Positions 3,084 to 13,867 of a DNA stretch of 27,047 bases are shown one piece after another (the stretch's first letter is position 1; the number at the start of each line of letters is the position of its first letter). The notes beneath the pieces are model-generated. The model had not been told where the DNA came from. It made no database searches and saw only the letters and a program-made list of their open reading frames with translations. The DNA is taken from the IMG/VR virus record IMGVR_UViG_3300007734_000533, positions 1-27,047 of that record; one strand, 5' to 3'. Source of the stretch: a virus. A program made the position numbers and the translations under genes.

Positions 3084-3201
3084 CGCGCTTGGCTTTCATA
3101 AGCCTCCAGGTGCGGGGACTAATGGTAGATTTGCTCTTGGGTCGGCTGGTCCCGGCTTTGCGTCGGGCGTTGATGTTGGCGTACAAACCGGGGCGTTTCA
3201 T
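3061..3201 (-). CDS. Small basic phage protein, MKRPGLYANINARRKAG type (46 aa)
   Basis: The ATG at 3199-3201 opens a 46-residue, Lys/Arg/Ser-rich protein beginning MKRPGLYANINARRKAGTS and ending RGGFSEKK. The GLYANI(N/H)A(R/K)RK opening is a recurrent signature of very small basic proteins in marine and freshwater phage genomes, of unknown function and probably nucleic-acid binding. A longer in-frame opening to 3249 exists but lacks supporting signals. No Shine-Dalgarno precedes the ATG. Instead a TATACT box lies six bases ahead, so the mRNA may be leaderless. It is the first gene after the origin-like region and leads a three-gene operon. Confidence 0.75.
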   Translation of the reverse strand: MKRPGLYANINARRKAGTSRPKSKSTISPRTWRLMKAKRGGFSEKK

Positions 3202-3207
3202 TTGGGT

Positions 3208-3235
3208 AGTATAGCACACCCTTTCCAACCCCCAA
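3208..3235 (-). promoter_or_regulatory. Extended -10 promoter, probably leaderless start
   Basis: On the minus strand TGC-TATACT (hexamer at 3208-3213, TG at 3215-3216) is an extended -10 box. TTGGGG at 3230-3235 is a partial -35 with a 16-base spacer. The ATG at 3201 begins exactly seven bases after the -10 hexamer, where transcription would start, and there is no Shine-Dalgarno. This fits a leaderless mRNA for the small operon 3201-2603. Confidence 0.6.
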
Positions 3236-3258: not shown

Positions 3259-3447
3259 ACTTACGCAAAATTTCTCGATCCAGTTTTCGCCCCACCACCG
3301 CAACAAATAATTTCAACCGCCGCAGCAATACCGCAGAAATACCCCTATAAGGGGTATTTCTTGCGGTAGTTGCGGTATGCGGGCAAAAGCCCATTTCTGC
3401 GGTACCGCAACTTGAATTGTTGCGGTAGTCCAAAATCTTGCGTAAGT
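3259..3447. repeat. Origin-like cluster of iterons and a large cruciform
   Basis: A 189-base non-coding block is bounded by a perfect 10-base inverted repeat, ACTTACGCAA (3259-3268) and TTGCGTAAGT (3438-3447). Inside lie repeated TTGCGGT boxes at 3361, 3370 and 3420. Inverted copies are at 3297 (ACCGCAA) and 3330 (ACCGCAG), and the palindrome TGCGGTACCGCA is at 3398-3409. A long stem pairs 3329-3345 with 3351-3368 (about 17 base pairs, one bulge, loop TATAA) and includes GAAATACCCC/GGGGTATTTC. CCGCAGAAAT (3331) and ATTTCTGCGG (3393) form a further inverted pair. It sits directly beside the primase-helicase gene. A replication origin is the leading reading; a terminator or regulatory hub is the alternative. 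Confidence 0.7.
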
Positions 3448-3477
3448 CGCATTTCTGCAAAAACCATTATCAACGAC

Positions 3478-5409
3478 TTACGAAAGCTCGGTGATCTTCC
3501 AACCATCCCCATCCTTGGAGATCGTGCCGTCAGATTTTGCGGCAGCAAACAACTCCTGTGCCTTCCGTTGGGAACACCCAACGCAAGCCACAATATGCTC
3601 CAGGCAGGCGGTGTACCCACTACCCTTCGGCCAGTCGGGCAGGGCTGGTTCTATGGTCATTTCCTTGCGCCCCCTGCCCGTGTTCTCTGGCCCGTTGGAC
3701 TCCTCCCAGGCCATCCACTCCTCGGCATGGCGTAGCCATACATGGGTGGCGTACTTGCTGGCGTGTATATCGGTATCGCCCTGGGGCCACGGGATAGCTG
3801 CCCGTGTTCCGCGCTTGGGGAACGACAGCTTAAAATGCCCTTCCTTGACCGCCTGAAGGTACACCACGGCTCTTGCCCAGTTGGTTAGCTCACTTGACCC
3901 TAACCCAGCGTAGGCGAGGTCGTAGAGCGTTTGCGAGCCACCACCTTCCTTTGGCGGTTTTGGCGTGTGGTGCATTACCATCCATGTAACCCCAGTGGCC
4001 ACGCTGATTGGGTTTAGGCAGTGGCGCAGGAACATGGTCATGTTCTCCTGGGCAAGGGCATCCCCTCCCATAAAGGATAGGAGCGGATCAATCCAGCATA
4101 GGTCCGGGCGGTGTAGCCCAATCAGGGCAGCCGTCATCTTTGCGAAGTCCGGCCCCGTCTTGGTCGTGTCTCTGATGATCGTGACATTGGCAAGCATCAA
4201 TGAGGACTGCTCCTCGGTCAGGTTCAGCTTCCCCTTGAGGTGTCGAAGCACACCTTGGGCCATCTCCGCGACATCACCCAGATCGTTCTCGGCCTGTACC
4301 AACAGGCTTCGTAGCGGCTTCTTTGGCGTGATCCCAAGGAACGGCAGACCGATGGCCCAAGTCATCATCGCTTGCAGGCAGAGCGTTGACTTGCCCAGCC
4401 CCGACCCGCCGATCCATACGCATGACCCGCCCTTGCACAACCAGCGATTGCCAAGCAAACAATCACCATCCTCGTCCGCCTTGAATCCAAGGATGTCCTG
4501 CCACGGCGTAGGTTGCGGCAGGTTCATCGCCTCCATGTGCGCCCGCCACTCGCTCCACCCTTGCCGCCCGATGTTCGTTGCAAGCAACGCCTGGTGGGCG
4601 TTGGCGAGTTTCCTCGGCGCACCGGGGAGGCGCGACAACCTTGAGGCATCCTTGTTCTTTGGGTCGATGTCGAACTGCGCCATCTTGGAGTAGAGGTAAG
4701 CCACCCGATCTTCATATTCCTTGGCATCCTTGGCATCCACCTTGACCCAGGCATGAACCGAGCGTGATCCGGAATGGATGACCACCGAGCAGGGCAGTTC
4801 CAGTGCGCGGATGACATTCCACTGCTCATCCATCGTGCCGCTGTCGAACTCGACTAGCGCATGACGGAAGGTTTGGACATCCTCAGACTTGCGCGACTCG
4901 CCCACGGGATTGATGCAGACATAAGCACCAACATAGCTTTCGGGCAACTCGACCCCGGCATGGAACTGCTTGAGCCAATCCTCGCGGGTCTTGATGGTTC
5001 CCTTGCCTGACGGCCTCTCGCTATCGTCCTGGTGGATTGCGCCCACGATGCAGACCCGGTCGCCCTCGTTGAAGGCGGTGAGCAAAAACTTCCTAACATC
5101 ATCGGCGTGGTGGCTTGGCTTGGGGCATGGTTCAAGCTCGATCCTGACCGGCTCTTGAATCTTGAATGGGTTGAGCGATTCCCCGATGGGTTGGCGGGCG
5201 GCCTTGCGGTAGGCTGACTTGATCGCCGCCTCGATCTCGCGGTCCTTTAGTCCACTCGATGTCGCACCCGGCCACAGGCGATCCAAGGCATCACCCTCGG
5301 TCACCCCCGCATCGCGCAGTTGTTGTGCGGCCAGAAACAACTCCTGGTTACGCTCGCCCTCCTTGGCTCCGTTGCTGATGAAGTTCTCGGTTCGTTTGGG
5401 TAGTCTCAA
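3478..5409 (-). CDS. Primase-helicase (AEP-like primase fused to RecA-fold RepA-type helicase)
   Basis: 643 residues, starting at TTG 5407-5409 with AGGAGG five bases ahead. Residues about 20-75 resemble a primase-associated helical domain (PriCT-like). Residues about 100-290 carry marks of an archaeo-eukaryotic-type primase: EFDSG (187-191), a serine-histidine strand with H219, and SRLPGAPR (259-266). A RecA/RepA-type ATPase follows, with Walker A GGSGLGKST (334-342), Walker B-like LCWIDPL (437-443) and a HH pair at 480-481. The C-terminal 55 residues look like a winged helix. Such fusions unwind DNA and lay primers at phage or plasmid origins. No DNA polymerase is seen in the window, so host polymerase may be used. 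The adjacent iteron region fits the role. Confidence 0.87.
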   Translation of the reverse strand: MRLPKRTENFISNGAKEGERNQELFLAAQQLRDAGVTEGDALDRLWPGATSSGLKDREIEAAIKSAYRKAARQPIGESLNPFKIQEPVRIELEPCPKPSHHADDVRKFLLTAFNEGDRVCIVGAIHQDDSERPSGKGTIKTREDWLKQFHAGVELPESYVGAYVCINPVGESRKSEDVQTFRHALVEFDSGTMDEQWNVIRALELPCSVVIHSGSRSVHAWVKVDAKDAKEYEDRVAYLYSKMAQFDIDPKNKDASRLSRLPGAPRKLANAHQALLATNIGRQGWSEWRAHMEAMNLPQPTPWQDILGFKADEDGDCLLGNRWLCKGGSCVWIGGSGLGKSTLCLQAMMTWAIGLPFLGITPKKPLRSLLVQAENDLGDVAEMAQGVLRHLKGKLNLTEEQSSLMLANVTIIRDTTKTGPDFAKMTAALIGLHRPDLCWIDPLLSFMGGDALAQENMTMFLRHCLNPISVATGVTWMVMHHTPKPPKEGGGSQTLYDLAYAGLGSSELTNWARAVVYLQAVKEGHFKLSFPKRGTRAAIPWPQGDTDIHASKYATHVWLRHAEEWMAWEESNGPENTGRGRKEMTIEPALPDWPKGSGYTACLEHIVACVGCSQRKAQELFAAAKSDGTISKDGDGWKITELS

Positions 5410-5825: not shown

Positions 5826-6938
5826 TTATTTGGATTTCTCCTCCAACTCCATCGCCTTCCCAGCCGCCTCAACTATATCCTGAGCGGTGATGTTGCGAAG
5901 CGCATTGCACCAGTACTGTGTCAAAGGTAGCTTATTCGTCGCATCCTTACACTTGGCCTGCGGCAACCCTCCATGCGGTCGGCACGGAGCGTGCGGACAG
6001 GTGTCAGGCTTGAAGACCGACACGTTCTTCGGGTAGAACTGAACTCGATCCTCTGGGTGGTACGATCCCCAAAGCGACACGCAAGCCGTGTCGAGGCCAG
6101 CCGCCATGTGGTTCACACTGCTGTCCGGTGCCACGACAAAGTCCGCGTTGGCGATGATCGGGAACAGCGAGCGCACCTGCTTGGTGCAGTTGAACAAGTC
6201 GATGACCCTGGGATGATTCACCTCAAAGTTGTTTGAATTGTCCAGCCCGATGATGACCGCATGATGCTTCGGGTACTCTTCGAGCAGGGAGTAAACCGCC
6301 TCTTGTCCAAGCTTTGGCGGGTAGGTGCGGGTCGGACCGCTGGACGATACATGGTAGGCGAAGAACGGCGTAGGTAGCGGCCACTTGCCTAGTTCCTTTA
6401 GCTCGTTGTGATCGGGGTCAATTAGGTACAGCTTCGGCCTACAATACTTCGCCATCGTCTCCTCGTCCCACACGCCCATCCATTCATAGATCCGTTTGTA
6501 GGCGTTGCCTCCGCCCGTACCTAGTTTGGTGTTGCCCACCTGACCTGAGAACAGATCGTCGGTCGGCAGGTGTGCGTCATAACTATCCCACGCCTCCAGT
6601 GTGCAGGGAAGCGGGTACAGCTTTGCACCCAGCCCAGCGTAGAGGGTGAGGTTGCGGGCAGGCGCGTAAACATCCACCACCCCGCCGGATTCCTGAACCA
6701 GGTAGTTGACGAAGGCGGTAGTGATGATGGCATCACCGATTGCCCCGGCGCGGTACACGGCAGTCGCCCCTCCCGTGGATCTTCCCTTGTAGTACGGCTT
6801 GATCTTGTGCGGCACTGGCACGGCATCCTCCCAAAGCGAGCCGGTAAGCTCGTCGGGCAACATATAGGTAGTGCGCGGCCACAGGTTGTTGTCGTCCACC
6901 TTGTGAACGGAGTTGGTTTGGTTGGTCCAGATTTTCAT
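5826..6938 (-). CDS. Glycosyltransferase family 9-like protein (GT-B, heptosyltransferase type)
   Basis: 370 residues. The ATG at 6936-6938 overlaps the stop of the methyltransferase gene (ATGA), so the two are translationally coupled. The N-terminal half has the RAGAIGDA loop (63-70) typical of GT9 enzymes, which use nucleotide-activated heptose or related sugars. The C-terminal half has APDSSVNHMAAG (270-281), the GT9 nucleotide-sugar-binding segment, followed by VSLWGSYHPEDR. A C-terminal cysteine group (C314, C319, C330, C344) is an added feature. In bacteria these enzymes build lipopolysaccharide core. In a phage the acceptor could be host surface sugar, a virion protein or modified DNA; its pairing with a methyltransferase favours DNA, as inference only. 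Confidence 0.82.
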   Translation of the reverse strand: MKIWTNQTNSVHKVDDNNLWPRTTYMLPDELTGSLWEDAVPVPHKIKPYYKGRSTGGATAVYRAGAIGDAIITTAFVNYLVQESGGVVDVYAPARNLTLYAGLGAKLYPLPCTLEAWDSYDAHLPTDDLFSGQVGNTKLGTGGGNAYKRIYEWMGVWDEETMAKYCRPKLYLIDPDHNELKELGKWPLPTPFFAYHVSSSGPTRTYPPKLGQEAVYSLLEEYPKHHAVIIGLDNSNNFEVNHPRVIDLFNCTKQVRSLFPIIANADFVVAPDSSVNHMAAGLDTACVSLWGSYHPEDRVQFYPKNVSVFKPDTCPHAPCRPHGGLPQAKCKDATNKLPLTQYWCNALRNITAQDIVEAAGKAMELEEKSK

Positions 6939-7777
6939 TGGTTCTCCATGACTAGGTTGATGTTTCTTATGATTTCCGCCGCAACTTGCGGGACGATGGC
7001 GTTGCCCAATCCTTTAAGACGGTGTGTTCGATTGGGTATCCCATGAGCCACTCGACCCACGTTGGGTTCAGTTGGCCAGTTTGACCGTTGTTCTCCTGCA
7101 CCGTTGCGTCCAAATACCCTTTCTCTAAACGATACTTGTGCGACTTGCTGCCGATTGGCCCAACCCCCTTCCATTCCGCCGCCCGTGGAGTTGGCCAGAA
7201 CTGACTGTTCTTTGGCTGCACATGATCCCGAAGTTTGTAATGACCCGTGGTTCCCGGCCTCATTTCCATAATCCCGCCCTCTCCATCCGATGCGTGTGGA
7301 GTTCGCCAGAATCCAGACCCTGTCTCTTTTGTGGCTGGCATCGACACCGCAAGCTGGAATAATGAGCGATTCGACTTCGTAACCTTCCGCTTCCAAGTCA
7401 GTATGCACCTGGTCGAGTGCCATGTTGACGATGCCAGCAACATTCTCACCAATGATCCAAGCTGGCCTTGCTTCGCGTATGACTCTGAGCATTTCCGGCC
7501 AGAGATAGCGGTCATCTCCCTTGCCTCGCTGCTTCCCGGCAACACTGAATGGCTGGCAGGGGAATCCGCCTGTGAGAAGAGTGACTCCTGCGTATAGGTC
7601 GCCTCGTATTTCCCTGATGTCTTTGTGGCACGGCACGTCCGGCCAGTGCTTTTTGAGGACGGCTTGGGCGTAGGGTTCGTTGTCACAGAAGGCAACAGTT
7701 CTATATCCGTTCCACTTGGCGGCAAGCGCAAACCCTCCGATGCCTGAGAAGAGGTCGAGGTGGGTGAGTTCATTCAT
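6935..7777 (-). CDS. DNA (cytosine-5-)-methyltransferase
   Basis: 280 residues from ATG 7775-7777, which overlaps the upstream TGA (ATGA). The motifs are in order: I, DLFSGIGGF (8-16); IV, GGFPCQPFS with catalytic C74; VI, ENV (111-113); VIII, RDRVWILA (151-158); X, GLGNAIVPQVA (257-267). The enzyme would methylate carbon 5 of cytosine in a short target. The region between VIII and X is short, so target recognition is by a small domain. No matching restriction enzyme is nearby, so this is an orphan phage methyltransferase, suited to evading host restriction or starting further base modification. Its DNA also carries a second long open frame on the same strand, with GT9 coupled downstream. Confidence 0.93.
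   Translation of the reverse strand: MNELTHLDLFSGIGGFALAAKWNGYRTVAFCDNEPYAQAVLKKHWPDVPCHKDIREIRGDLYAGVTLLTGGFPCQPFSVAGKQRGKGDDRYLWPEMLRVIREARPAWIIGENVAGIVNMALDQVHTDLEAEGYEVESLIIPACGVDASHKRDRVWILANSTRIGWRGRDYGNEAGNHGSLQTSGSCAAKEQSVLANSTGGGMEGGWANRQQVAQVSFRERVFGRNGAGEQRSNWPTEPNVGRVAHGIPNRTHRLKGLGNAIVPQVAAEIIRNINLVMENQ
6967..7773 (-). CDS. Overprinted ORF inside the methyltransferase gene (268 codons)
   Basis: This frame begins at ATG 7771-7773, four bases downstream of the methyltransferase ATG, and runs 268 codons on the same strand in another frame. Its product is Ser/Thr/Pro-rich at the N-terminus. It then contains segments I recognise from stand-alone or annotated phage proteins: SQADSPASHSVLPGS (67-81), a MTAISGRKCSE stretch, SSTWHSTRCILTWK (115-128), RSLFQLAVSMP, FWPTPRAAEWKG (192-203) and LNPTWVEWLMGYP (235-247). 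The last resembles the C-terminal part of other C5 methyltransferases. It may be a real overlapping gene, a conserved by-product of methyltransferase codons or a source of wrong annotations. No separate ribosome binding site is seen. Confidence 0.42.
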   Translation of the reverse strand: MNSPTSTSSQASEGLRLPPSGTDIELLPSVTTNPTPKPSSKSTGRTCRATKTSGKYEATYTQESLFSQADSPASHSVLPGSSEAREMTAISGRKCSESYAKQGQLGSLVRMLLASSTWHSTRCILTWKRKVTKSNRSLFQLAVSMPATKETGSGFWRTPHASDGEGGIMEMRPGTTGHYKLRDHVQPKNSQFWPTPRAAEWKGVGPIGSKSHKYRLEKGYLDATVQENNGQTGQLNPTWVEWLMGYPIEHTVLKDWATPSSRKLRRKS

Positions 7778-8130
7778 TTCCCCATCCATCCAGACTTCCA
7801 GCCACGAAGCCTTGCGTTTTGAATAGCGTGGCGGTCCACACCATATTCTTTTGATATTTCAGAATCCGTCATCCCGTTCTCCCACATCACCCGCCAGATG
7901 GCAAACCTGCGGTTGATGGCGTGCTTGTCCCTGCACCTGTCCTTCTTGATCTCCTCCGGCACCCGGATCTTGACGGGATTACCCATCTTCTCCTGTGCGT
8001 CCATGACGCAAAGAAGTTGCGCCGCCATCTTTCGGCTGGCATCGCGGCAGTTGGCCAGCGACTTCTCCAGGGAGTGTACCCTAGATGACAGGATTTGTAC
8101 CGCCGTCTTTTGTTCCGTCAGTGTGTTCAT
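7774..8130 (-). CDS. Helix-turn-helix protein with N-terminal coiled coil (118 aa)
   Basis: The ATG at 8128-8130 follows AGGAGAAAAGGA, a strong ribosome binding site. The gene begins inside the 3' end of its neighbour (50-base overlap). Residues about 5-50 form a coiled coil (ILSSRVHSLEKSLANC). The C-terminal 35 residues form a homeodomain-like HTH (MTDSEISKEYGVDRHAIQNARLRGWKS). The layout suits a small dimeric DNA-binding protein, either a regulator or an architectural factor. Its stop overlaps the start of the methyltransferase. No closer family is recognised. Confidence 0.72.
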   Translation of the reverse strand: MNTLTEQKTAVQILSSRVHSLEKSLANCRDASRKMAAQLLCVMDAQEKMGNPVKIRVPEEIKKDRCRDKHAINRRFAIWRVMWENGMTDSEISKEYGVDRHAIQNARLRGWKSGWMGK

Positions 8131-9085: not shown

Positions 9086-9156
9086 TTGTCCAACCACATG
9101 GCCATGAGCGTAACGCCAATGGCAAAAAGAATCATGTCGATGGGGGTTATTTCCAT
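9082..9156 (-). CDS. Single-span membrane microprotein (24 aa)
   Basis: ATG 9154-9156 lies inside the last codons of the oxygenase gene, with GGGG about five bases ahead. The TGA at 9082-9084 forms an ATGA with the ATG of the next gene. The 24 residues (MEITPIDMILFAIGVTLMAM, then WLDK) form one hydrophobic span with an acidic start and a Lys end. Overlap at both ends supports translation by coupling, yet a frame this short can occur by chance. It is similar in design to the 27-residue microprotein at 1961-2044, with no obvious sequence relation. Confidence 0.45.
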   Translation of the reverse strand: MEITPIDMILFAIGVTLMAMWLDK

Positions 9157-9728
9157 TGTGGCCCCGTGATCCATGCGACCAGTGCCCAGCGTGTTCCCCA
9201 GATCGGAGCCTTGGCGCGATGCTTCATCCATGCAGGAAAGAACGTGGCCGCACCCTGGGCCTTGCGATGTTCCACCCCATGCCAATCCCCATCCACCTGC
9301 AGTCCTCCACCAACATATTCTTCCGGGCGGGACAGGTTGATGACCATCGTCAGCTTGCGGTCGGAGCCATCGAAGGTATCAAAGTGCCACTTGAACCACT
9401 GGCCGGGGCGGTAGCGAAGAACCTGAAGGTTCTGCATATCCATCACGTCAAATCTAAAGTGCGCCGTGTTTACCTCGTCGGTGACGGCGGCCACATAGTC
9501 ATAGATCCACCGAAAGTGCGGAGACTTGGGCAACCAGCAAGAGGCGCAGGTTCGGGTCAACGACCTGACATGGCTACCGTCTTTGGCCATGACCGGCGCA
9601 CGTTTCATTCCGATAACGCCAGCATCCTGGCGAAGCATCTCGCACTGCGAGCGGGTCAGGACTTGCGGGACCGTGACCGCCGTGAGGATCTTTTGCTTAA
9701 AACTTTTTTTAGTTTCTTGAGCGTCCAT
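9147..9728 (-). CDS. 2-oxoglutarate/Fe(II)-dependent oxygenase (prolyl-4-hydroxylase-like)
   Basis: 193 residues from ATG 9726-9728, with AAAGGAG eight bases ahead. The catalytic set of the superfamily is visible: iron ligands H115 and D117 (KWHFDTF), distal H170 (WMKHR) and 2-oxoglutarate-binding R180 (GTRWALVAW). The double-stranded beta-helix is indicated by LQVLRYRPGQ, LTMVINLS, GGGLQV and GAATFFP. The layout is that of P4H/PKHD-type hydroxylases, common in aquatic phages. The substrate could be a protein side chain or a nucleobase. It shares an operon with a C5-methyltransferase and two glycosyltransferases, which makes base hydroxylation worth considering, although it is not clearly of the TET/JBP type. 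Confidence 0.87.
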   Translation of the reverse strand: MDAQETKKSFKQKILTAVTVPQVLTRSQCEMLRQDAGVIGMKRAPVMAKDGSHVRSLTRTCASCWLPKSPHFRWIYDYVAAVTDEVNTAHFRFDVMDMQNLQVLRYRPGQWFKWHFDTFDGSDRKLTMVINLSRPEEYVGGGLQVDGDWHGVEHRKAQGAATFFPAWMKHRAKAPIWGTRWALVAWITGPQWK

Positions 9729-11662: not shown

Positions 11663-11955
11663 AGTCGTGGTACTTCCTTTTTTACTTGCGCCCAGACGAA
11701 CAAGGCACGAACAACCGCCCGCTCCAGGTGGTCGGTTGCCGTCTCCCCGTTATTGTCAGGGCATGGTGTTGATCTTTGTAGTTGCATCATTGCCGTGGCC
11801 AGATGGCGTATGGCGCGGGCAATATGATAATCGTGAATCGGTCGGTCAAGCTCAAACCATTGTCCATAGGCGGACTTGTCCGATCCTTTGCCCATAACCC
11901 GCCAGACAATATCCTCGGCGGCTTTGCCCATGTCCTCGATGGTCGGCGGGTTCAT
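11659..11955 (-). CDS. Small phage protein, possibly DUF5664/nucleotide-hydrolase-like (98 aa)
   Basis: ATG 11953-11955 overlaps the TGA of the nuclease gene (ATGA), which rules out an in-frame start 12 codons earlier. The core HIARAIRHLATAMMQL, an acidic DNNGET loop, and DHLERAVVRALFVWAQV form two helices with conserved-looking His and Asp. This resembles, loosely, small all-alpha phage proteins of DUF5664 or MazG-like dNTP hydrolase type. That link is tentative. It follows recombination genes, where dNTP-metabolism proteins are common. Confidence 0.55.
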   Translation of the reverse strand: MNPPTIEDMGKAAEDIVWRVMGKGSDKSAYGQWFELDRPIHDYHIARAIRHLATAMMQLQRSTPCPDNNGETATDHLERAVVRALFVWAQVKKEVPRL

Positions 11956-12770
11956 AACTTCATCCCTGGTGGGACATATTGCTTGGACCAAGACCAGACC
12001 TTGAGCATTGCGCTAAAGGCGATGCCAGCCTGATAGAGTTCCTCCTCGTCCCACACATGGTGCCGGATGGATTCCGGGTCGTTGGACGCCAGCACCACCG
12101 ACACGCACGCAGCCTTGGGGTTCTCCGAGGCGATGCGATATGCCCAAAGCTGGGCGCAGTCGGTGTCGTAGAACGGATCGTACTTGGGGTTTACCTTGCG
12201 GTTCTTCAGGTCGATGATGGCGTCGCCAATTCCTGACATCCGCACATAGGCGTCGCACCGCCCAGCGTAACCAGCACCGACAAGGGCTTTTTCGCACCAG
12301 TAGGTCTTTTCAATGTTTGCATCGGCCCACTTCTTAAAGGTTTTGATGTAGGGCTGGAGGTCTTCGTCTTTGCAGGTAGGACGTCCCATAAGGATATTTT
12401 CTGCCTGCTCATGCATGCGAGTTCCATGCTCTGCCGCCTTTCTTGTTTGCTCCTTGCTGTCCTCCACCACCCTTCTGGCGTATTCATCCAATGATTCATC
12501 GTCCCTTTTTGGCAGGGTCAACGCTGATTCTATCGCAACGGAAATGCGCCATGATGTAAGCTGCGGCTTATCCATGATCCCAAGCACGCTGGTGACCGAT
12601 GGAAGCAATCCCAGCTTGCGGGCATCCGCAACCGTGGTGTTTCTTTCGTTGCCGTTTTTACCGATGATTACATGGGCTGACTCGCCATCCTCGGTGTACC
12701 AATGCCCGCTCTGGTCCGTTTGGACCAGGCGGGATTGGCTAGGCTCTTTCTGTGTGAGAGTAAGAGCCAC
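11952..12770 (-). CDS. Cas4/RecB-like PD-(D/E)XK exonuclease
   Basis: 272 residues. There is no ATG early in the frame. GTG at 12768-12770, four bases after the previous stop, gives a start reading M-ALTLTQ, whereas a longer opening to 12938 would lie inside the neighbour. The catalytic signature is complete: GTRMHEQAE with H120, an E160 contact, GYAGRCD with D173, IIDLKN with D187 and K189, and QLWAY (207-211), the QxxxY motif of RecB/Cas4/lambda-exonuclease-type nucleases. It probably resects DNA ends for recombination or processes replication intermediates with the SSB-like protein just upstream. Confidence 0.84.
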   Translation of the reverse strand: MALTLTQKEPSQSRLVQTDQSGHWYTEDGESAHVIIGKNGNERNTTVADARKLGLLPSVTSVLGIMDKPQLTSWRISVAIESALTLPKRDDESLDEYARRVVEDSKEQTRKAAEHGTRMHEQAENILMGRPTCKDEDLQPYIKTFKKWADANIEKTYWCEKALVGAGYAGRCDAYVRMSGIGDAIIDLKNRKVNPKYDPFYDTDCAQLWAYRIASENPKAACVSVVLASNDPESIRHHVWDEEELYQAGIAFSAMLKVWSWSKQYVPPGMKL

Positions 12771-12774
12771 TGGA

Positions 12775-13413
12775 TTAGAATGGTACTTGGTCGCCGGTTT
12801 CGGCAGCCCTTTCCTGCGGTGCCGAAGACGCACCACCGGCAAGCTCCTTGCTGGAGCGGATCTTTTCCTGCAACCACTCTGGCAATTCGCCAAACTGGCC
12901 ACCTGTTCCCTGCTCGATCTCGTAGAACACTTGGCCATTCTGCGTGTTCGTCGGTGCCTTCATGCCCTTTGGCAGTTTGGCCATACCTTGAATCGCGCAG
13001 TACTGCCGTCCGGCTTGGCTGGTCTTGTGAACCAATGTAAGCAGGCAGGCTTTGCCCAAGAGGTTCTTGAGGCTAAAGGACGCAAGCTCCTTTGATGTAA
13101 ACGCCTGACCACGCCACTGCTCAAGCAGTTTGCGGAGGGTCGCACGCTCTCCGAGACTGCGAGTCAGTTCGATGGAAACGACCATTGGCTTGGTAACCTT
13201 GGTGGTCTTGCCGTTCTCCACTACCTCGCCTTCGATGACTTGGTCGGGCAACTCAAATGCCAGACGCAGTTTCGGGGTCCACTTGTCCTCGCCGTCCCAG
13301 GTAACCTTCTGGGTTCCGAGATCGACTAGGCTGAAAAGAACGCCTGTGGTTGCTCCGGCTTCGGGCAACTGGCGTTCCGTGTTCTTGCTGGTTTCGCTGA
13401 GTGTTAGTGCCAT
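12775..13413 (-). CDS. Phage single-stranded-DNA-binding-like protein with SSB-type tail
   Basis: 212 residues from ATG 13411-13413, with GAAAGGAAAC ahead. The first 150 residues are beta-rich (GVLFSLVDLGTQKVTW, KLRLAFELPD, PMVVSIELTRSL). They also contain an ERATLRKLLEQWRGQAF segment that I associate with an uncharacterised phage replication/recombination protein. A disordered linker ends in GDQVPF, close to the acidic-hydrophobic tip of bacterial SSB (DDDIPF) that recruits repair enzymes. The gene lies between two nucleases. OB-fold DNA binding is inferred, not seen directly. Confidence 0.65.
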   Translation of the reverse strand: MALTLSETSKNTERQLPEAGATTGVLFSLVDLGTQKVTWDGEDKWTPKLRLAFELPDQVIEGEVVENGKTTKVTKPMVVSIELTRSLGERATLRKLLEQWRGQAFTSKELASFSLKNLLGKACLLTLVHKTSQAGRQYCAIQGMAKLPKGMKAPTNTQNGQVFYEIEQGTGGQFGELPEWLQEKIRSSKELAGGASSAPQERAAETGDQVPF

Positions 13414-13429
13414 GTTATTATGTTTCCTT

Positions 13430-13867
13430 TCAGTGTATTTTGTTTGGGTTTATTGGGGTTGAAGGCATCACAAATCCTTGGGCTACGGTTGTTGCTACAG
13501 GAGCAGTGTGGACAACGTCAATGGTAAAGTTTGGAGGAGCTATGTGGCGGGCGATCTCGCATAAGTCATCGGCCTCGACGATGGCCAGCCACTTCTTCTC
13601 ACCGTTGCGCCGAAAGAACACCGCCGGGATCTTCCCCTCGGGCGCATCGCCCTTGGCCTGTGCCATCCATTGTTCAGGCTTGATCTGCTGGCATCGTTTA
13701 ACCTCGCAGTGGAATGGGAAGTTCGCACAGACGACATCTCCCGATCCGCCTTCCGGGTCACCTGCATACTGCTGGGTGCGCCGCGCTTTCTGCCATCCCT
13801 GTTCGCGGAGGTATGACGCAAACTCCCGTTCGCCCGCCGCGCCTTTTCTGCGTGAATTTATTGCCAT
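13430..13867 (-). CDS. Holliday-junction-resolvase-like PD-(D/E)XK nuclease
   Basis: 145 residues from ATG 13865-13867, which overlaps the upstream gene by 10 bases. The N-terminal part shows the Hjc-like order: a basic start and RKGAAGEREFASYL with a catalytic glutamate (13 or 15), GSGDVVC with D44, and HCEVKR with E55 and K57. These four positions form the metal site of archaeal-type Holliday junction resolvases and related phage nucleases. The C-terminal 40 residues are Pro/Thr-rich and probably flexible. It likely resolves branched DNA before packaging or acts in recombination with the SSB-like and Cas4-like proteins. Confidence 0.8.
   Translation of the reverse strand: MAINSRRKGAAGEREFASYLREQGWQKARRTQQYAGDPEGGSGDVVCANFPFHCEVKRCQQIKPEQWMAQAKGDAPEGKIPAVFFRRNGEKKWLAIVEADDLCEIARHIAPPNFTIDVVHTAPVATTVAQGFVMPSTPINPNKIH

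Follow-up and report, generated by a model that had tools for sequence, protein, structure and literature searches.

What is the function of the repeat-rich non-coding DNA that lies directly 3' of the primase-helicase gene in this viral contig, which was analysed over its whole length of 27,047 nucleotides (hereafter the window)? From the sequence comparisons below, we propose, with a probability of about 0.85, that this block is the replication origin of the phage, which would be read by the C-terminal domain of the primase, opened by its helicase part and perhaps primed at a central hairpin.

Boxes and hairpin 3' of the primase-helicase gene

The block contains the following features.

3259–3482, no strand: the whole proposed origin block, kept in 28 distinct relatives
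3259–3268, plus strand: outer variant box ACTTACGCAA, pairing with TTGCGTAAGT at 3438–3447
3296–3302, plus strand: degenerate iteron CACCGCA, which is TACCGCA in most relatives
3303–3318, no strand: A+T-rich stretch between iterons, a possible opening site judging by sequence only
3329–3335, plus strand: iteron TACCGCA, the outer part of one hairpin arm
3329–3368, no strand: hairpin or cruciform, in the order iteron, GAAATACCCC, loop, GGGGTATTTC, iteron, with one bulged T at 3361
3362–3368, minus strand: iteron TACCGCA, the outer part of the other hairpin arm
3371–3377, minus strand: iteron TACCGCA, invariant among relatives
3398–3409, no strand: palindrome TGCGGTACCGCA, formed by two overlapping iterons arranged head to head
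3421–3427, minus strand: iteron TACCGCA
3438–3449, no strand: outer variant box TTGCGTAAGTCG, the inverted partner to both other outer boxes, its core columns invariant in 28 relatives
3474–3482, plus strand: outer variant box CGACTTACG, overlapping the primase stop codon

The elements named in the original prediction were located at these sites, including the perfect 10-base inverted repeat at the borders (3259–3268 and 3438–3447), the palindrome at 3398–3409 and the ACTTACG at 3476 that overlaps the primase-helicase stop codon. At least five TTGCGGT-type boxes in both orientations had been predicted, and five exact copies of TTGCGGT/ACCGCAA were found (3361, 3370 and 3420 on the plus strand; 3297 and 3404 in reverse). 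Counted as TACCGCA, the block holds six boxes (3329, 3362, 3371, 3398, 3403 and 3421) and the degenerate one at 3296; the six span 99 bp around a strong hairpin, directly 3' of the primase-helicase gene. In 100 dinucleotide shuffles of the whole window, the densest 7-mer cluster per 130 bp had at most four copies and usually three, compared to the six observed. TACCGCA occurs 12 times in the whole window against 2.4 expected, and half of these copies are in the block. The ACTTACG at 3476 also pairs with CGTAAGTCG at 3441–3449 in a 9-bp inverted repeat. The outer boxes, ACTTACG(CAA) (3259–3268, 3438–3449 and 3474–3482), resemble the iteron ACTACCGCAA, with 8 of 10 positions shared; it is possible that they are weaker sites of the same protein or sites of another protein.

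A search of viral contigs with the adjacent primase-helicase (3478–5409, minus strand) retrieved 39 contigs with 75–98% identity, and the block was present in every inspected contig that extends past the primase stop codon. When 28 distinct versions were aligned, conservation reached about 98% in the boxes and hairpin core, compared to 85% elsewhere in the block and 76% in the flank (boxes versus rest of block, 0/10,000 permutations), and the boxes in both orientations outside the hairpin were as strongly conserved as the hairpin itself. In the longer relative G003, which has 123-bp terminal repeats, seven of the eight TACCGCA sites lie inside the block. A similarity search of the block DNA against sequenced phages gave no match.

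The hairpin of the original prediction is present, but not as an unbroken 17-base-pair cruciform: only an inner stem of 12 bp is perfect (3335–3346/3350–3361), and extension to 17 pairs (3329–3345/3351–3368) leaves one T, at 3361, unpaired. Its predicted DNA folding energy is −18.3 kcal/mol (z = −9.3), a value that none of 200 shuffles equalled. The core, in which a short A+T-rich loop separates a C-run from a G-run, hardly varies. Within classes of relatives, stem pairing is kept by double changes (9 cells versus 2.3 expected, 0/500 shuffles), and in a second class the paired substitutions were weaker, with the direction unchanged. Across relatives the pairing outlasts changes of the boxes through such compensatory substitutions, a sign that the paired form is under selection. 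A scan of 2.9 million viral contigs for the hairpin pattern returned 23 contigs, nearly all of them known primase contigs, with one (L056) left unchecked.

The boxes might instead be operators for the primase operon or for the small downstream gene, to which the C-terminal domain or a different regulator would bind, with the origin elsewhere. Many initiators also autoregulate, which counts toward such a role, as does a conserved −10-like TATACT immediately beyond the block, ending 6 nt upstream of the ATG of the following gene. However, the block sits downstream of the primase gene, away from its promoter, a hairpin selected for pairing is needless for operators, and a consensus promoter scan found no promoter within the block. 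We consider this explanation unlikely, although it survives better than the other alternatives. The −10-like element (3199–3213, minus strand; the small gene starts at 3201) is TATACT or TACAAT in relatives, and the arrangement suggests a leaderless transcript for the small gene.

A one-piece primase-helicase with a predicted winged helix

If the block is an origin, the adjacent gene is its candidate initiator, for which the following features were assigned.

3478–5409, minus strand: one-piece primase-helicase, the proposed initiator, 643 aa (AAA_25, E = 2.7e-22; weak BT4734-like_N; PHROG 2597 DNA primase, E = 1.2e-52)
4540–5112, minus strand: AEP (PrimPol-type) primase domain, about residues 100–290 (profile match 6zp9, E = 1.8e-5)
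3670–4524, minus strand: RSF1010 RepA-like hexameric helicase domain, about residues 296–580 (structural and profile match)
3493–3654, minus strand: predicted C-terminal winged-helix domain, the proposed box reader, about residues 586–639 (predicted structure)

An AlphaFold model of the protein had a mean pLDDT of 82.9. The AEP region gave sub-threshold matches to BT4734-like_N and RepB_primase, the family profile matched the PrimPol AEP domain 6zp9 at the E-value listed above, and the N-terminal part carries conserved EFD and SxH, which we take to be AEP primase motifs. For the helicase domain, the top structural match was RSF1010 RepA (Z 22.6, rmsd 2.5 over 229 residues), with a profile match to 1g8y (E = 0.002); the structure also matches other RecA-fold helicases. 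The C-terminal 60 residues were modelled as helix-helix-strand-strand in two models, and their structural matches were modest and mostly to winged-helix proteins, the best being FtsK gamma (Z 6.6); a Pfam search with the C-terminal domains returned no significant match. As modelled, a single polypeptide appears to combine the activities that in RSF1010 are split among RepB', RepA and RepC.

In relatives whose primases have no C-terminal domain (L120, L122, L124, L130 and L132), a small ORF directly follows the primase stop codon, that of L122 containing HDRDFSKSEVIAYVMETCDYDLEQATQTFHYLRNRRIIVF. This ORF could encode a split-off DNA-binding domain.

Joint variation of boxes and C-terminal domain

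Close relatives that keep the primase-helicase all retain the repeats, and relatives at 44% identity carry different repeats in the same arrangement. More broadly, among relatives with 34–50% identity and the C-terminal extension, the arrangement is the same and the boxes differ, with box counts compared against shuffles. Successive searches of distant relatives brought the box types to about eleven in all, including TAGTGCA, CCCTCAA, CCCCCAA, CTACCAA, CCTTCAA, TATCACC, GACAAAT, CTGGTGCA and GTGGGTCA, and tabulating box types against blocks gives a nearly diagonal matrix. The constant order comprises an inverted box pair, a hairpin (C-run, A+T-rich loop and G-run between box-bearing arms), more boxes and the next gene. 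For example, L082 and L083 (44% identity) have TAGTGCA boxes; L084 almost matches L082 over its first 570 residues, differs in the last 70, and has CCCTCAA boxes. In an out-of-sample case, the Planctomycetota contig L156 has ten CTGCCAC boxes on the same hairpin plan (4985–5145) after a primase relative. This contig holds the single primase relative found among bacterial genomes and gives a hint of the hosts.

The block is not common to all AEP-RepA families, a generalization that we rejected: in several subfamilies with the C-terminal extension (L129 and L133–L155) the region downstream contains no such block, nor could a similar cluster of boxes be seen in the vicinity. The isolated phages EFC-1 (Enterococcus) and Javan74 (Streptococcus) encode primase-helicases with about 30% identity, and the gap that follows the gene contains clustered repeats and lacks the C-run hairpin; these clusters are likely to be unannotated origins. 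Their repeats are AGCTATT in EFC-1 (L247, 4352–4594) and GAAAAATA in Javan74 (L249, 4391–4691). The phage FP_Lugh is a weaker case of a box cluster after the same gene.

The boxes track the C-terminal domain. Across 58 distinct loci of one clade, which are not independent of each other, C-terminal distance correlated with block distance at a Mantel r of 0.896, and at a partial r of 0.874 given N-terminal distance (0/2000 permutations each), while downstream-gene distance barely followed C-terminal distance (r = 0.141). The pair L211/L179 shares 99% N-terminal identity, and the first 70 residues of the next gene are identical, whereas 77% of the C-terminal residues and 65% of the block positions differ; identity drops some 290 nt upstream of the stop codon and resumes at the next start codon. 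The chimera L208/L180 reflects a joint exchange between the same two classes, and L243/L239 one between two other classes, both flanks being shared in all three pairs. On a finer scale, within a single domain class, the putative recognition helix carries different residues where the boxes shift among CTACCAA, CCCCCAA and CCCTCAA. Since the boxes of a block all change together and the flanks do not, the reader should lie inside the cassette, which has no coding part other than the C-terminal domain. This joint exchange and covariation are indirect signs of a possible cognate specificity between the C-terminal domain and the iterons.

Because the domain adjoins the boxes, breakpoints in the homologous flanks could also move both without a functional link, so that linkage alone would give the correlation and another protein would read the boxes. 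Against such neutral co-travel, the flanks of L211 and L179 are almost identical and their box sets differ, a distant reader would need simultaneous exchange, and the fine box changes match putative recognition-helix substitutions in one domain class. We regard it as improbable, somewhat more so than operators. The original prediction had also offered a site for recombination enzymes, and resolution or packaging enzymes can be added. The long palindromes and the phage-encoded RusA-like resolvase and exonuclease would fit a site of this kind, but no site-specific recombinase could be identified among the genes that were scanned, those for the RusA-like resolvase and the exonuclease are some 10 kb away, and box identity follows the primase C-terminus, making this explanation very improbable. 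A run of minus-strand genes (6935–7789, 9147–9728 and 11952–13867) encodes a C5-cytosine methylase, a 2OG-Fe(II) oxygenase, the exonuclease and the RusA-like resolvase. Least probable of all is a transcription terminator or structured RNA: a strong hairpin does directly follow the gene, but its stem has no T-run after it and a terminator scan was negative, which makes a terminator unlikely, an Rfam search gave no match, and the boxes outside the hairpin are equally strongly conserved in both orientations.

Proposed mechanism and known systems

The original proposal of an initiator-binding origin is thus strongly supported by the conserved block, by the same layout with different boxes, and by boxes that track the C-terminal domain, and we infer that replication starts at the block. 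In the proposed mechanism, the winged-helix C-terminus of the adjacent primase-helicase would bind the TACCGCA boxes and probably also the variant ACTTACG boxes, assembling on the DNA immediately 3' of the gene that encodes it. The duplex would then be opened by the RepA-like helicase part, and the central hairpin would be extruded or become accessible as folded single-stranded DNA. The fused AEP primase would prime at the hairpin, so that one polypeptide would do much of what RepC, RepA and RepB' do at the iterons and ssi hairpins of RSF1010. This use of the hairpin for priming, drawn by analogy, is the least certain step, and we put it forward tentatively, at somewhat below even odds. With the odds only slightly short of even, the origin may have two parts, in which the constant C-run/G-run hairpin serves the constant AEP part and the boxes serve the exchangeable winged-helix tail. 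Tail and boxes would be traded as a cassette within one phage population, possibly escaping origin-directed interference or competition.

The original prediction knew no described phage origin with this exact layout. A search of the literature collection used here found no paper on this replicon in phages, but the claim has to be tempered, as the origins of SaPI, SCCmec, P4, RSF1010 and pRN1 are of the same general kind. In SaPI Rep and SCCmec Cch2, the C-terminal domain recognises iterons situated immediately 3' of the respective gene (PMC7581432 and work cited there). Shared with these systems are the origin right after the initiator helicase gene and the clustered short iterons; we also count as a likeness their self-loading initiator helicase, whose C-terminal domain reads short iterons. 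A C-terminal dsDNA-binding domain on the helicase, as in the SaPI, Cch2 and P4 type, is present here as a predicted winged helix. In contrast, the SaPI and Cch2 helicases are of the DUF927 or D5/Primase_Cterm type, and the present one is neither, being AAA_25 in Pfam with the fold of RSF1010 RepA. The prominent hairpin with iterons in its arms is a further difference, since deletion of the SCCmec inverted repeats left Cch2 binding unaffected (PMC7581432).

With RSF1010 (IncQ) the phage shares a RepA-like helicase, an AEP primase, iterons and a stem-loop (PMC4234260, PMC4538821). The RSF1010 stem-loops are priming sites, and by analogy the hairpin found here, which is under structural selection, is a candidate priming site. 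Different from RSF1010, which has three separate proteins (RepA, RepB' and RepC) and two stem-loops (ssiA and ssiB), the phage has one polypeptide and one symmetrical hairpin, and no separate iteron binder of the RepC type was found. Replication of pRN1 requires a stem-loop 3' of ORF904, an AEP-helicase-winged-helix gene, and similar stem-loops have been noted in phages BIP-1/BPP-1 (PMC4234260). These systems have in common with ours an AEP primase, a helicase, a C-terminal winged helix and a stem-loop 3' of the gene; the pRN1 type differs in having an SF3 helicase rather than a RepA-like one and no iterons, and its specific binding could not be demonstrated. According to the part of PMC4234260 that deals with P4, the winged helix of the alpha protein binds origin repeats and the same multifunctional protein then unwinds and primes, similar to the proposed phage initiator in uniting reader, unwinding and priming in one protein; in that account the P4 primase is TOPRIM-type, whereas the one here is AEP. 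Joint exchange of reader and origin is also common to PLE satellites, in which a DNA-binding domain and its cognate origin are exchanged together, cognate specificity was shown experimentally, and exchange of the origin allows escape from an origin-directed nuclease, a selective force (PMC8263062). The PLE initiator, RepA_N, reads DNA with its N-terminal part, unlike the C-terminal reader proposed here, and neither primase nor helicase activity is predicted for it.

The type of system is therefore already known, and what appears new, judged from sequence, is the fused RSF1010-like protein, the constant hairpin and the exchangeable cassettes of iterons and reader. A widespread group of uncultured phages would gain a concrete origin and initiator, found by pattern. 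The natural cassette exchanges provide matched pairs of small DNA-binding domains and sites that may help to learn how winged helices change specificity, and, if the two-part origin is true, they constitute a natural collection of such reader-site pairs. They also suggest that some force selects for a changing origin code, as demonstrated in the PLE satellites.

In the window and three longer relatives, GC skew switches near the block, and we rejected it as a means of mapping the origin: the switch coincides with changes of gene strand, and its sign differs from the one usually seen at a bidirectional origin. In the contigs of the relatives G001, G002 and G003, the skew measured at 4-fold sites in minus-strand genes changes gradually around the genome; a step coincides with the block in two of them, and the third shows little. 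This drift could reflect one-directional replication or gene timing.
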